In this document: positions 10,202 to 26,529 of the stretch, one piece after another | Layout: each line of letters starts with the position of its first letter | Numbering within the stretch: position 1 is the stretch's first letter | DNA from: Actinomycetota bacterium | GTDB lineage: Bacteria; Actinomycetota; Thermoleophilia; Gaiellales; Gaiellaceae | Assembly (NCBI GenBank): GCA_003170155.1 | Contig: PMZQ01000071.1 | Span: 1-32,074 of the forward strand | Direction of reading: 5' to 3' | Length of the DNA stretch: 32,074 nt | Notes under the pieces: model-generated | Told to the model about the DNA's origin: nothing | Databases searched by the model: none | The model's input: the letters and a program-made list of their open reading frames with translations, nothing else | Made by a program: the position numbers and the translations under genes

Positions 10202-10648
10202 TCAACTCTCGAGCGTTTCCAGTATGCCCCGCGTCCAGGCCTTCGCTCTCTCCAGCTCTCCCTTGGCGAGAGGTCCCCGCTTGCGCTTGACGAAGAAACC
10301 TTCCGCCTCCGCGACGAGAGTCCCGTCGCGTGCTGCCAGGCTGGCTGCGATCTTGTCTGCGGCGAAGCCGAAGACTCTCACCCATCTATTCGTGAGCCTC
10401 GTATCGAACGCGGCGACCTTGGCGCCGCCAAGGGACGGAAGTCGGTTGAGGTATTCCTGCATCGCCTGTGTCGGCCGGCCTCCCTGAGTCGGTGAGCCGA
10501 CAATGACGAGCCCGAACGAACCAAGCCCGGAGAGGTTGATGTCGCCAACGCGAGCCACCTCCAGATCGCCGGTCACGGCTTCGCCGATCGCTCTGGCGAG
10601 CAGCTCGGTGTTGCCGTAGAGCGAGTCGTAGATGATCAATGTGTTCAT
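10202..10648 (-). CDS. Flavodoxin-like FMN-binding protein
   Basis: A 148-residue single-domain flavodoxin fold. The phosphate-binding loop is TLIIYDSLYGNTELLA (residues 3-18), the second FMN loop is VIVGSPTQGGRPTQ (about 48-61), and the third region is VAAFDTRL. It carries electrons or acts as a small FMN-dependent reductase in the cytoplasm. A C-terminal basic stretch (VKRKRGPLAKGELE) resembles members annotated as flavodoxin family proteins rather than classical long-chain flavodoxins. No Shine-Dalgarno is evident. It is divergent from the PAS-LuxR gene, and an intergenic repeat sits between them. Confidence 0.85.
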   Translation of the reverse strand: MNTLIIYDSLYGNTELLARAIGEAVTGDLEVARVGDINLSGLGSFGLVIVGSPTQGGRPTQAMQEYLNRLPSLGGAKVAAFDTRLTNRWVRVFGFAADKIAASLAARDGTLVAEAEGFFVKRKRGPLAKGELERAKAWTRGILETLES

Positions 10649-10790
10649 GGTTGGCCGCAGATCGTGAGATCGAGTATGAACATTCGTTTCTTCTCGAATC
10701 CACTTCTGCTCAACCGGCGCGTTGCTATAACGCGCACCCGAACCCGAGCCGATCCCGCTCTGCCTCCGCGCTTATCTTCCGAACTGCTGA

Positions 10791-10938
10791 GAGCCTATTC
10801 CGCCAGGCCTGCACGCCCGAGGCGACCGATCCACGGAGCCGGCAACCGAAGGGCCGCTCACCTCACTACCAGTGCGCCTTCACAATTGGTATCCACGGCT
10901 TGACTCCCTCGAACGCACATTCCTACCGGAATAAACTC
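10791..10938. repeat. Intergenic repeat copy 1, with imperfect terminal inverted repeats
   Basis: This element occupies much of the 355-bp gap 10649-11003, which holds no gene. Its left end GAGCCTATTCCGCCAGG is inversely repeated at its right end (reverse complement GAGTTTATTCCGGTAGG, 13 of 17 identical). It shares a left block (26 bp, 3 mismatches) and a right block (about 47 bp, 6 mismatches, including TGGTATCCACGGCTTGAC and CGCACATTCC) with the copy at 12862-12950. The middle differs: this copy has about 58 extra nt. The rest of the gap is AT-richer and probably holds the divergent promoters of the flavodoxin and PAS-LuxR genes. Confidence 0.75.
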
Positions 10939-11003
10939 TACGTAATTATCCGAACGCTAAACGCGGAACCGGCACGATTCGCGCGGGCGTTCGATCGTAA
11001 AGA

Positions 11004-11585
11004 GTGCAACTCGTGACGGCCAAGTTAACTGTTCGTTCAGGCGATGCGGTATTTGGTTTCGACCGCGAGCTGATCGTACGTTCCTGGAACCATCAGGCCG
11101 AACTGCTCACGGGCCTGACCGCCGAGTCGGCGATCGGGCGCCCCTGCTGGGAGGCGATGGCCGCCGTCGACGAGGACGGGGCGATCGTCTGCCACTCTGG
11201 ATGCTCCTGCGCACGTCTCGCCCGCGAGGGCTGGCCGGTCCCGCGCAAGACACTGCTCGTGAAGTCGAGGACCGGTACGCGGCGACCGCTTTCCGTCTCG
11301 ACCATCTGCTTGAACCAGGACGGGCGCGAGTTCTTTTTGCACGTGCTCGAGCCTTCGACTCCGATCTCGCTGCTTCAGCAACCTACCCGGGTTGGGTTGA
11401 CGCCGCGACAGCGTGAGGTGCTGAGCCTGGTCGCCGACGGTTACTCGGCGCGCCAGATCGCCAGGCGCCTCGGACTGGCCGAGCCGACCGTTCGCAACCA
11501 CATCCGCGCCATTCTGGTCGAGCTCCGCGTGCACTCACAGCTCGCCGCCGTGGCGCGTGCCCGCAAGCTCGGGCTGGTCGCGTAA
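11004..11585 (+). CDS. PAS domain plus LuxR-type HTH transcriptional regulator
   Basis: The 193-residue product has an N-terminal PAS domain (about 12-115; FGFDRELIVRSWNHQAELLTG is the PAS entry pattern, split here by position) and a C-terminal LuxR/NarL helix-turn-helix (about 130-190; LTPRQREVLSLVADG, then ARRLGLAEPTVRNHI). The PAS domain contains CWEAM and CHSGCSCARL, giving four cysteines in a short span, which could bind metal or sense redox state. There is no receiver domain, so it acts as a one-component sensor. The start is uncertain: GTG 11004 gives the longest frame, but GTG 11013 has AAGAG at a better distance. It faces away from the flavodoxin gene, a possible target. Confidence 0.85.
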   Translation: MQLVTAKLTVRSGDAVFGFDRELIVRSWNHQAELLTGLTAESAIGRPCWEAMAAVDEDGAIVCHSGCSCARLAREGWPVPRKTLLVKSRTGTRRPLSVSTICLNQDGREFFLHVLEPSTPISLLQQPTRVGLTPRQREVLSLVADGYSARQIARRLGLAEPTVRNHIRAILVELRVHSQLAAVARARKLGLVA

Positions 11586-11701
11586 CGCCGAGCCGGCAGG
11601 GTCGGCCTGCTTCTCCATCCGCCGAGCAGGCGTCCGCCTTCGGCGGAGACCTTGAACTCGCGCATGATCGCTGCCCGACCTGTGAGCTGCTACACCTTGT
11701 T

Positions 11702-11724
11702 AGGGTTGTACTCGTAGCAACCCT
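11702..11724 (+). other. Inverted repeat upstream of the aldolase-like gene
   Basis: AGGGTTG, 9 nt, then CAACCCT is a perfect 7-bp inverted repeat. It lies 116 nt after the PAS-LuxR stop and 40 nt before the next ATG. It could be an operator for the downstream gene or a weak terminator of the upstream one; the sequence does not decide. Confidence 0.3.
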
Positions 11725-11763
11725 GCACATCTCCGCTCAGAGAAAGCGATTGCGGTACGAAAC

Positions 11764-12861
11764 ATGACTGATAGCTCACATTCGTCTGCCTCTCCAAGGC
11801 GGTTTGCCGTCACCGGAACGCCGGGCGGTCCCAACAGCAAAAAGTTCTCGGAGTCGGTCGCCCGAACGCTCGAGAGTCGCGGCATGGTTCGCGTCGAGGA
11901 TCCCGAGCAAGCCGATTTTGTCTTGCTTCTCTTCCCAACCGACAGTCCCTCGCCCTTCCGCCGTCGCTCTCGTGGTACCTACGTCGCGGCGATGCACGAG
12001 CGCTCCGAGATGCCGTCCGATCCTCTCGCAGCCGAGTATCCGCTACTCGTGCGCGCGCTCGCCAACTCCGTTCTCTGCTACGTGCCGGACAACGCCGTTC
12101 TCGTGACCACACCCGAGCGCGGGACTTTCCGCGCCGACGCGCCCGCCGCCGAGCTCGCCGAGCGCCTCGTCGATCGGATTCAGCCGCTCGCCACATCGAG
12201 ACTGGTGATCGACAACGAGTACCACACCGATCTCGAGCCCGAGCTCTGGCAAGGCGACGAGTTGACCAAGGAGCTTTCCTGGGCCGGCGAGCAGCTGGAC
12301 GGCTTCGGTCTTCTGCCCGCGCCCTTTCCCGTTCACGAGTTGTTGAGCGAGCGCGAGTTCAGGCATGTCAAGCGCCTCTGGGGTATCGGCGGTCTCTCCT
12401 ACGGAAACCTCTCGATCCGCAAGGACGAACAGCGCTACTGGATGAGCGCCAGCGGTGTCGACAAGAGCAAGCTCGTGGAGATCGGCCGCGACATTCTGAT
12501 GGTCTCGAACTACGACGCCGAGAAGGCCGCGATCATCCTCAGCGTTCCGCCGGACGTTGAGCCGCGCCGGGTCTCGGTGGACGCGATCGAGCACTGGATG
12601 ATCTACCAGAACCACCCCGAGGTCGGTGCGATCCTGCACGTGCACGCCTGGCTCGAGGGCGCCGCCGCGACCGAGGTCAACTTCCCCTGCGGAACCGAGG
12701 AGCTTGCACTGGCCGTCTCGGAACTGCTCGAAGCCGAGGACGATCCCGGCCACGCGGTCATCGGTCTACGCAATCACGGCATCACCGCAACGGGTGAGAA
12801 CCTGCACGAGATCATCGAGCGCATCCAGCCCGGCCTGCAACCGCAGGTGCCGATGACCTAA
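11764..12861 (+). CDS. Class II aldolase/adducin-like protein with extra N-terminal domain
   Basis: The C-terminal half (about 185-355) is a class II aldolase/adducin domain, the fold of fuculose- and ribulose-phosphate aldolases. It has GGLSYGNLSIR, the metal-ligand pair His292/His294 in LHVHAW, a third His338 in GLRNHGI, and an acidic residue in DAIEHWMIY that may be the catalytic Glu277. A zinc-dependent lyase or epimerase activity is likely; the substrate is unknown. The N-terminal part (about 12-150) is not part of that family. It starts RRFAVTGTPGGPNSKKFSES and continues with ADFVLLLFPTD and VLCYVPDNAVLVTT, which look like alternating strands and helices. No Shine-Dalgarno is visible. 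The gene stands alone, with an intergenic repeat directly at its 3' end. Confidence 0.8.
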   Translation: MTDSSHSSASPRRFAVTGTPGGPNSKKFSESVARTLESRGMVRVEDPEQADFVLLLFPTDSPSPFRRRSRGTYVAAMHERSEMPSDPLAAEYPLLVRALANSVLCYVPDNAVLVTTPERGTFRADAPAAELAERLVDRIQPLATSRLVIDNEYHTDLEPELWQGDELTKELSWAGEQLDGFGLLPAPFPVHELLSEREFRHVKRLWGIGGLSYGNLSIRKDEQRYWMSASGVDKSKLVEIGRDILMVSNYDAEKAAIILSVPPDVEPRRVSVDAIEHWMIYQNHPEVGAILHVHAWLEGAAATEVNFPCGTEELALAVSELLEAEDDPGHAVIGLRNHGITATGENLHEIIERIQPGLQPQVPMT

Positions 12862-12950
12862 GAGCCTATTCCGACAGGTCTGCTCGCCCCGCGCGGCTGC
12901 TGGTATCCACGGCTTGACCGCCTCGGTCGCACATTCCCACCGGAACAGGC
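12862..12950. repeat. Intergenic repeat copy 2, with imperfect terminal inverted repeats
   Basis: The 89-bp element begins immediately after the stop of the aldolase-like gene and fills the gap to the convergent epimerase gene. Its ends are an imperfect inverted repeat: GCCTATTCCGACAGG at the left and, as reverse complement, GCCTGTTCCGGTGGG at the right. Both end blocks match copy 1 at 10791-10938; the middle is shorter. Confidence 0.75.
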
Positions 12951-12957
12951 CCGAATT

Positions 12958-13908
12958 TCAGCGAAGCGAGTCACGAACGAAGCGAACCGTGTCACCGAGC
13001 GTCTCCTCGACCGGCCGTGGCTCGAAGCCGAGCTCGCGCGTGGCTTTGGCCGGATCGCAGTACCACCAGCGAATCGCGATCCGGGTGTAGCCGGGCGAAA
13101 CCGGCCAAGGGAAGACCTTCGTCAGCGCCAGCGCCAGCTTGGGTGGCAGGTTGATCTGGAGGCGCTTGCGTCCGGCAATCTCGCCGACCTTGCGGAAGAA
13201 CTCGACGTGGCTGAAGTTTCCCTCGCGGTTAGCGAGTACGTAGCGCTCGCCTTTCTTCCCGCGCTCCGCGATCGCGATCAGCCCCAGCGCCGTGTCGCGC
13301 ACGTCCACCAGGCAGAGCCCGCCGGTGACGACGAAACGCAAACGCCCGCGCAGGTACTCGCGAATCGGCCAGGTCGTACCGCCGCGGCTGTCGCCGGGCC
13401 CGATGATGTAGCTCGGGTTGGCGATGACGATGTCGCGCCCGGCGTGCGCCGCTTCGAGGGCGTAGCGCTCCCCGGCGATCTTGCTCGCCGAGTAGGGCAT
13501 GCGATCGACATCGGCGGGCGGAGTGTGGCTCTCGGTGATCAGATCGCCGGGGCCTGTGCCGGGGCCGAGCGTCGCGACGCTGGCGACGTGAACGAATCGA
13601 GCCATGGGATCGACGAGCTCGAGCAACCTTCGCGTGCCCTCCGCGTTTGTCGCCATCAGGCGATCCCGGTCTCGCTCCTCGTGCGCGACCAGCCCGGCGA
13701 CGTGATAGACGAGCTCGCAGCCGGCAGTGGCCTCTCGTAAACCCTCGCTGTCGTCCATCGATACACGTAAGGGCTCGGCCCCGAGCTTTGCGAGCTCCCG
13801 CAGCGTGTCCTCGTCGCGGCCGAGCGCTCGCACGGGCTCGTCCCGCTCACGCAGGAGCCGAACGAGCTCCGAGCCGAGGAACCCGGTCGCGCCGGTGACG
13901 CAGATCAC
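12958..13908 (-). CDS. NAD-dependent epimerase/dehydratase (extended SDR)
   Basis: The GTG start at 13908 overlaps the TGA of the VKOR gene by 4 nt (GTGA), giving 316 residues; the open frame extends further upstream but that is the VKOR gene in another frame. The nucleotide-binding loop TGATGFLG (residues 5-12) and the catalytic Tyr139/Lys143 in YSASK are intact, with Ser110 in VHVASVAT a candidate third residue. PSYIIGPGD and FEPRPVEETL are extended-SDR features. The sequence most resembles the HpnA/dihydroflavonol reductase-like branch, whose members act on sugars or small ketones; substrate not assignable. It is the last gene of an operon with the DsbA-like protein and VKOR and is probably translationally coupled to them. 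Confidence 0.87.
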   Translation of the reverse strand: MICVTGATGFLGSELVRLLRERDEPVRALGRDEDTLRELAKLGAEPLRVSMDDSEGLREATAGCELVYHVAGLVAHEERDRDRLMATNAEGTRRLLELVDPMARFVHVASVATLGPGTGPGDLITESHTPPADVDRMPYSASKIAGERYALEAAHAGRDIVIANPSYIIGPGDSRGGTTWPIREYLRGRLRFVVTGGLCLVDVRDTALGLIAIAERGKKGERYVLANREGNFSHVEFFRKVGEIAGRKRLQINLPPKLALALTKVFPWPVSPGYTRIAIRWWYCDPAKATRELGFEPRPVEETLGDTVRFVRDSLR

Positions 13909-14324
13909 GCGGGGGCGTCCTTCGGCCGCCACAAGAACCAGGCGAGCGCAATCGGCGCCAGAATGGCCGAGACGATCTCGTTCGAGACGCACCAGGTGCA
14001 GTAGCGGCCGATGTCGTGGGCCTGGACGTAGAGCAGGTAGGCGTTGAAGCCGAGCACGGTGACGGCCATGGTCGCGCCCGCCTGCTTGGCGAGGGGATGA
14101 CGCACCAGCGTCGTCGTCACGATGCTCAGGTAGGCAAGTAGGCCGAGGAGCGCTACCGGGATGCCGAACAGCTCCGACCAGCGCGATTTCTGCACGACCT
14201 CGCAGCCGCCCGTCAAGCAAATCGGGGCGCTGCCGTTGAAGTGCGTGTAGGTGAGGTAGCCGGCGATGCCCGCCCCGATCAGAGCGAGCACTCCGACGGC
14301 GACGCGGAGATTGCGCTCGCTCAT
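13905..14324 (-). CDS. Vitamin K epoxide reductase (VKOR) family disulfide-generating membrane protein
   Basis: The start is ATG 14324, which overlaps the stop of the DsbA-like gene by 4 nt (ATGA); a longer frame upstream is a shadow. The 139-residue protein has four hydrophobic helices (about 7-29, 53-74, 83-104 and 115-133). The loop cysteine pair is Cys36 and Cys41 in ICLTGGCEVV, and the active-site CxxC is Cys109/Cys112 in RYCTWC. In actinobacteria VKOR replaces DsbB: it reoxidises DsbA-type proteins and passes electrons to a quinone in the cytoplasmic membrane. The upstream partner fits this exactly. Confidence 0.92.
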   Translation of the reverse strand: MSERNLRVAVGVLALIGAGIAGYLTYTHFNGSAPICLTGGCEVVQKSRWSELFGIPVALLGLLAYLSIVTTTLVRHPLAKQAGATMAVTVLGFNAYLLYVQAHDIGRYCTWCVSNEIVSAILAPIALAWFLWRPKDAPA

Positions 14325-26355: not shown

Positions 26356-26458
26356 ACACGGGCTCGGAGAGCGAAGTGCACTAAGTGGTGTCAGACGGGC
26401 TCCGGAAGGCCAGTCACGCCTGGCCGCACGGAGCCCGCCGGCCGAGGACGCGAGATGG
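26356..26458 (-). repeat. tRNA-Met downstream region (right, intact copy)
   Basis: This is the sequence immediately 3' of tRNA-Met on the minus strand. It contains ACACGGGCTCGGAGAG (26356-26371) and GACGCGAGATGG (26447-26458, the last bases being the tRNA 3' end), the two blocks shared with 23111-23209. See the left copy for the comparison. Confidence 0.55.
26396..26437 (-). terminator. Hairpin terminator 3' of tRNA-Met
   Basis: CGGGCTCCG-gaa-GGCCAG, a 6-nt loop, then CTGGCC-gca-CGGAGCCCG forms a 15-bp stem with one symmetric 3-nt internal loop. It lies 19 nt beyond the tRNA 3' end. It could also stop the convergent ABC operon, which ends at 26196. Confidence 0.65.
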
Positions 26459-26529
26459 CGGAGGCCGGGTTTGAACCGGCGACCTACGGGTTATGAGTCC
26501 GTCGCTCTAACCAGCTGAGCTACTCCGCC
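26456..26529 (-). tRNA. tRNA-Met (anticodon CAT, elongator type)
   Basis: The reverse strand folds as a cloverleaf: acceptor GGCGGAG/CTCCGCC (7 bp, fully paired), D arm GCTC/GAGC, anticodon loop CTCATAA, variable loop AGGTC, and T arm GCCGG-TTCAAAC-CCGGC, with discriminator A at 26456. The perfectly paired first acceptor base pair argues against initiator tRNA. The sequence resembles elongator Met rather than the lysidine-modified Ile tRNA, but CAT alone cannot separate the two. The anticodon stem ACGGA/CCCGT has an A-C mismatch next to the loop (31-39). No CCA is encoded. Confidence 0.95.

Follow-up and report, generated by a model that had tools for sequence, protein, structure and literature searches.

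The two intergenic repeats described here belong to a dispersed family of short hairpin elements, which is quite probably a genus-specific, non-autonomous, MITE-like mobile family that is moved in trans, whose insertions into coding DNA are purged and whose hairpin is under selection. Both repeats lie in the window, by which we mean the whole analysed stretch of 32,074 nucleotides, and about 50 copies of the family are dispersed over the 2.1 Mb source genome. Searches of this genome gave 45 matches with copy 1 (best non-self E-value 4.7e-40) and 49 with copy 2 (1.1e-13), and a scan for the end pattern RAGRGCCTATYYCGNTAGG that allowed two mismatches gave 42 forward and 34 reverse occurrences, 76 in all, against 0 for the reversed control. 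The repeats of the window are therefore not a chance similarity, and the genome search suggested by the initial annotation indeed returned many intergenic copies with matching ends. The full form of ~161 bp (161-163 bp) is bounded by the inverted ends AGAGCCTATTCCG...CGGAATAGGCTCT, which are complementary in well-ended copies, and it carries no transposase gene. Shorter members are internally deleted and keep the ends, ranging from the 93 bp of copy 2 down to 43-66 bp in forms that consist of the ends only.

In the window, the canonical orientation of the family corresponds to the minus strand, and the model ends of both copies fall within 1-3 bases of those annotated before (Table 1). The two shared blocks noted there were recovered (right block 89% identical over 45 bp, left block 88% over 32 bp), and the ends of each copy are inverted repeats of each other, as had been seen (AGAGCCTATTCCG / CGGAATAAACTCT and AAGAGCCTATTCCG / CGGAACAGGCCC). 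Compared with the 161 bp form, copy 1 is ~11 nt shorter in the apical part; it forms one long hairpin (-74.7 kcal/mol, z -5.1; opposite strand -47.8 kcal/mol, z -2.4). The differing middle reflects ~60 nt that are absent from copy 2, which the initial annotation had not recognized as a deletion derivative; an internal deletion is indicated because the orthologous site in the sister genome G005 carries a 161 bp member (L160:5821-5981). As initially described, copy 1 is placed between divergent genes and copy 2 between convergent genes, and the aldolase reading frame ends with a TAA stop codon (12859-12861) that lies inside the CTAAG target of copy 2. An Rfam search of the window gave nothing above the gathering score except one tRNA, a gene on the minus strand at 26456-26529.

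Table 1. Repeat copies, target sequences and flanking genes in the window.
Feature	Position	Strand	Basis
Copy 1, 150 bp member	10790..10939	- (canonical orientation)	nhmmer E 1.2e-40; covariance model 145.7 bits; own-genome copies
Copy 1 left target half CTGAG	10787..10791	+	empty-site alignment with G005 (there CTAAG)
Copy 1 right target half CTACG	10938..10942	+	empty-site alignment with G005 (there CTAAG)
Copy 2, 93 bp, internally deleted	12861..12953	- (canonical)	covariance model 61.6 bits; G005 orthologous site
Copy 2 target CTAAG, aldolase end	12858..12862	+	sequence
Flavodoxin-domain protein, flanks copy 1	10202..10648	-	Pfam
PAS/LuxR-type regulator, flanks copy 1	11004..11585	+	Pfam
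Class II aldolase-domain protein, flanks copy 2, stop codon at element junction	11764..12861	+	Pfam, ORF
NAD-dependent epimerase, flanks copy 2, stop ~5 bp from element	12958..14220	-	Pfam, ORF

From 22 copies we built a covariance model, which was searched against six genomes of the genus and 35 related genomes. It matched 59, 19, 52, 8, 28 and 57 times in the six genus genomes, with some matches counted on both strands, and 0 times in the 35 genomes from other genera of the same family and order. In the collections searched, the family is specific to a single genus, whose members are uncultured bacteria of peatland and permafrost. When named genomes were scanned with the pattern, the genus could be placed among the Actinomycetota bacterium MAGs fen_451, fen_544, fen_453 and palsa_644 and Thermoleophilia bacterium Chersky.2_42, five MAGs that are tied by locus identity to G005, G002, G004, G001 and G003. 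No match of the family was found in plasmid, phage and viral collections. One MAG of Pseudomonas and one of Methanomicrobiales (L105, L126) each gave a single exact pattern match, which may be due to chance or to mis-binned contigs.

Evidence for mobility comes from the comparison of copy sites, which were studied in sampled regions of the genomes. G005 is ~90% identical to the source genome (G000) and has an empty CTAAG at the site of copy 1; the site at L005 is likewise empty in G005, and two sites filled in G005 (L161:5300 and L161:18288) are empty in the source genome, these three with unbroken flanks. Only 17/141 sites in the sampled regions are common to more than one genome. In 73 well-ended copies the flanks follow the consensus CTWAG on either side, and 38 of these copies have identical middle bases in the two target halves, compared with 23.9 in shuffles (p 0.0005). 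The paired target copies at single sites are often unlike each other and unlike the empty site (CTGAG and CTACG vs CTAAG at copy 1), and some nested sites fit a duplication of 2 bp or zero, which leaves the length of the duplication somewhat uncertain. The elements thus combine the features of a MITE, namely short size, terminal inverted repeats without a transposase, a target duplication and presence or absence at orthologous sites. Together with the nested insertions described below, the many intergenic copies, empty sites and target duplication signal bear out the non-autonomous MITE-like reading of the initial annotation. As the copies are diverged, this evidence does not extend to recent movement.

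The nested insertions involve a second hairpin family of 167 bp with the ends AGAGCTCGTTTCGGAATGAAGACC...GGAACGAGCTCCT (for example L129:6483-6649, L153:1849-2015 and L085:2190-2353), which has 51 unique matches in the sampled loci. Both families can be aligned in the same orientation only (z 4.3; score 90 vs a shuffle maximum of 84, n=200), and judged by this alignment the second appears to be a distant relative of the first. Its copies follow the same hairpin plan, and in 12/12 of them the more stable fold is again on the same strand. Nesting occurs in both directions, with the first family inside the second and vice versa. One composite of the first family within the second is found in four species at different sites (L117:4065-4227, L021:1433-1595, L194:1624-1786 and L172:5283-5445), with inner elements that are ~90% identical, which suggests that composites of the two families move as a unit; the view that this four-species copy is a conserved RNA locus was rejected, as the composite lies at different sites. 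A 65 bp insertion in the source genome relative to G005 (L145:1255-1321 and L161:2686; ends TAGAACCTGTCTCGG...GAGACGAGTTCCTAG) probably represents the second family in a short form.

The whole element of the first family is one long imperfect hairpin with a consensus single stem of ~65-66 pairs. RNAalifold found this long stem in 22 copies, with two-sided changes at 12 pairs; with an unconstrained MAFFT alignment of 79 copies it gave almost no structure, and a profile alignment resolved the stem. A first alignment had been read as two subfamilies, which was wrong, since half of its matches were the same element in reverse, owing to the foldback. Two Watson-Crick types that differ on both sides occur at 14/66 pairs, compared with 3-6 in slid-partner controls, and interior pairs behave like those at the ends, so that covariation extends along the entire stem. 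Compensatory changes in the inverted ends, whose absence the initial annotation would have counted against its reading, are therefore present. In 96/96 full-length copies the canonical strand folds into the more stable structure (mean -102 vs -68 kcal/mol), although these are not 96 independent facts because the copies are homologous. Among pairs found by the folds of both strands, 339 cells are G.U and 170 A.C, and single-step changes in 29 closest-relative pairs show the same preference (112 G.U vs 64 A.C, p 0.0004). An origin of the wobbles in strand-biased C-to-T mutation is unsupported, as unpaired sites have no C-to-T excess. From the covariation, it appears that hairpin pairing, notably in one strand through G.U wobbles, is kept by selection; that selection acts on the folded strand is supported in part. 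The structured RNA that was initially offered as an alternative thus gains from the compensatory changes and the strong strand bias in folding, but the support is partial, and the two readings are compatible with each other.

The gene context of the copies was determined with a hexamer gene finder made for this analysis. Of 94 distinct full-ended sites only one overlaps a gene, whereas 858 of 1318 scored CTNAG sites (65%) are coding. At 35/94 sites an end of the element is no more than 3 bp away from a stop codon, compared with 87/460 (19%) of the CTNAG sites at which an insertion would not disrupt a gene; the initial annotation had not noticed this association. Stops at junctions are TAA 18, TAG 15 and TGA 3 times, while the called genes overall have 114 TAA, 286 TAG and 304 TGA; the dominance of TAA and TAG and the rarity of TGA at junctions are predicted by the CTWAG target. 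TAG is, by this gene finder, unusually common among the stops of genes called in the 133 copy-bearing loci. At 36/51 tandem sites the mRNA sense strand is the weaker-folding strand (36:15, p 0.005), and in 28/35 cases it is the canonical right end that forms the stop-codon junction (28:7, p 0.0005). The tandem bias is a moderate result because it is uneven among genomes (strongest in the source genome with 13:2, weak in G005 with 6:4 and G004 with 4:3) and weaker under stricter gene thresholds (p 0.04). Sense and antisense tandem copies are alike in folding energy (-101.3 and -101.5). This gives no support to a model in which a sense copy can persist only with a weaker fold, and it weakens the case for selection against strong mRNA folding.

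As to the enzyme that could move the elements, searches for DUF4096, DDE_Tnp_1, DDE_Tnp_1_2 and Y1_Tnp in the fragmented draft genomes gave few matches, without family ends around any of them, and a DUF4096 transposase was found in none of the six genus drafts. No transposase with the same ends as the family was found in these drafts. Y1-type (IS200/RAYT-like) transposase genes are present in G000, G002 and G004 (L245, L246, L247 and L248), and none were found in G001, G003 and G005, though all three carry the family. No match of the first or second family lies around the Y1 genes, and thus the flanking of a RAYT gene by its repeats, as expected for REP/RAYT systems, was not found. Elements of the IS1031/IS5 group have an IS5-type transposase and use a YTAR/TNA target, a pattern that the target of the family fits, whereas the search for DUF4096 transposases was negative in all six genomes.

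Based on these observations, we propose that the elements insert at CTWAG-like sites with a short target duplication (~3 bp, TNA) and that they would be moved in trans, by cut-and-paste, by a DDE-type transposase that recognizes their ends. Insertions into coding DNA would be purged, so that the surviving copies are intergenic. Where a TAA or TAG stop codon overlaps the target, the target duplication would restore it, and internal deletions that spare the ends would give rise to the shorter forms. Selection on the pairing would most likely mean that the transcribed hairpin matters, either because it helps the host to tolerate the element at the 3' ends of mRNAs or because it serves the element itself.

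A different weighting of the same data makes the elements primarily structured RNAs, that is regulatory hairpins serving the host in 3'UTR processing, termination or stability, with an ancient and incidental mobility. The very stable one-strand hairpin in all full-length copies of the first family and in the analysed copies of the second, the covariation beyond the ends, and the biases in gene orientation and stop side would all suit this. An orthologous pair from G000 and G001 also points in that direction with 15 changes from one Watson-Crick pair to another and 7 involving G.U vs 6 pair-breaking changes, but these two copies belong to different subfamilies, so that replacement or gene conversion is possible. 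We nevertheless find this explanation doubtful, given that few sites in the sampled regions are common to several genomes and several are empty elsewhere, that many copies are decayed or internally deleted, and that most neighboring genes have the better-folding strand as their antisense strand.

The strand-specific hairpin could instead be needed as single-stranded DNA in transposition or replication, as are the hairpin ends in IS200/IS605-type or REP/RAYT systems. Indeed, DNA parameters favor the same strand in 96/96 copies, so that an RNA role is not separable from a role of single-stranded DNA by folding, and three of the six genomes have Y1-type genes. Since neither family is found around these genes, Y1 was not found in three family-bearing genomes, and the ends and target duplication resemble a DDE-type element, we consider this improbable. 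Still further from the data is an origin in place, without mobility, as fixed intergenic repeats or as transcription terminators, which we regard as highly improbable: the location at gene ends and the hairpin shape would fit, but empty sites, nested insertion into another repeat and the target consensus speak against it. The junction sequences have no T-run after the stem and copy 1 lies between divergent genes, in agreement with the initial view that a plain terminator does not explain the copies.

The mobile MITE-like family preferred here is of a known kind. The bcr1 repeats of the Bacillus cereus group are intergenic, group-specific, MITE-like mobile elements of ~150-167 bp with a conserved secondary structure and a frequent location in UTRs (PMC2267715, PMC3446304). 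The new family shares their size, intergenic location, restriction to one group, mobility and structure. It differs in sequence and organisms and in its CTWAG target with stop-codon overlap, compared with TTTAT for bcr1, and is known from genome sequence alone. Correia/NEMIS elements of Neisseria have a long form of 153-157 bp, inverted ends, shorter internally deleted forms and a target duplication, and their hairpin in mRNA is bound or cut by RNase III (PMC2649163). Long and deleted forms, inverted ends and target duplication are also found here, but Correia/NEMIS has a TA target and other ends, whereas in the new family the entire length pairs and one strand is strongly favored. ERIC/IRU of enterobacteria is a 127 bp intergenic, hairpin-forming mobile repeat that occurs at the 3' ends of genes and affects their mRNA (PMC10969869, PMC2759123); by description, the new family resembles it as an intergenic, hairpin-forming mobile repeat often located at gene ends but has another sequence, host and target. 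RNA-level effects have been published for some of these systems (PMC3446304, PMC2649163, PMC10969869). With REP/REPIN and RAYT (PMC3116915, PMC3733652), the end-only derivatives share a resemblance to REP hairpins and the genus has Y1 transposases, but the ends have no GTAG/CGTC tag architecture and the full form is much longer, with a target duplication signal. Of the two classes named in the initial annotation, MITE-like is thus upheld and REP-like is less apt, because full copies are ~160 bp, have CTWAG ends and do not occur at Y1 transposase genes.

A literature search on Thermoleophilia with transposable elements and inverted repeats gave no description of such repeats, and we regard the family as an undescribed one with an unusual bias of folding toward one strand, set apart from bcr1, ERIC and Correia-like elements by their descriptions; it extends the mobile hairpin repeats of bacteria to the Thermoleophilia. 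Rather speculatively, the two anciently diverged families may share a long-hairpin design of which one strand is selected as RNA, with insertions at stop codons supplying a compact genome with portable 3'UTR hairpins and with selection for the orientation in which genes carry the weaker strand. If true, the 3' ends of mRNAs in this genus would be shaped by mobile elements. With its many diverged copies, a second family built alike and close genomes with empty sites, the genus lends itself to a natural test of the reasons for which small mobile elements of bacteria retain RNA-like folding.
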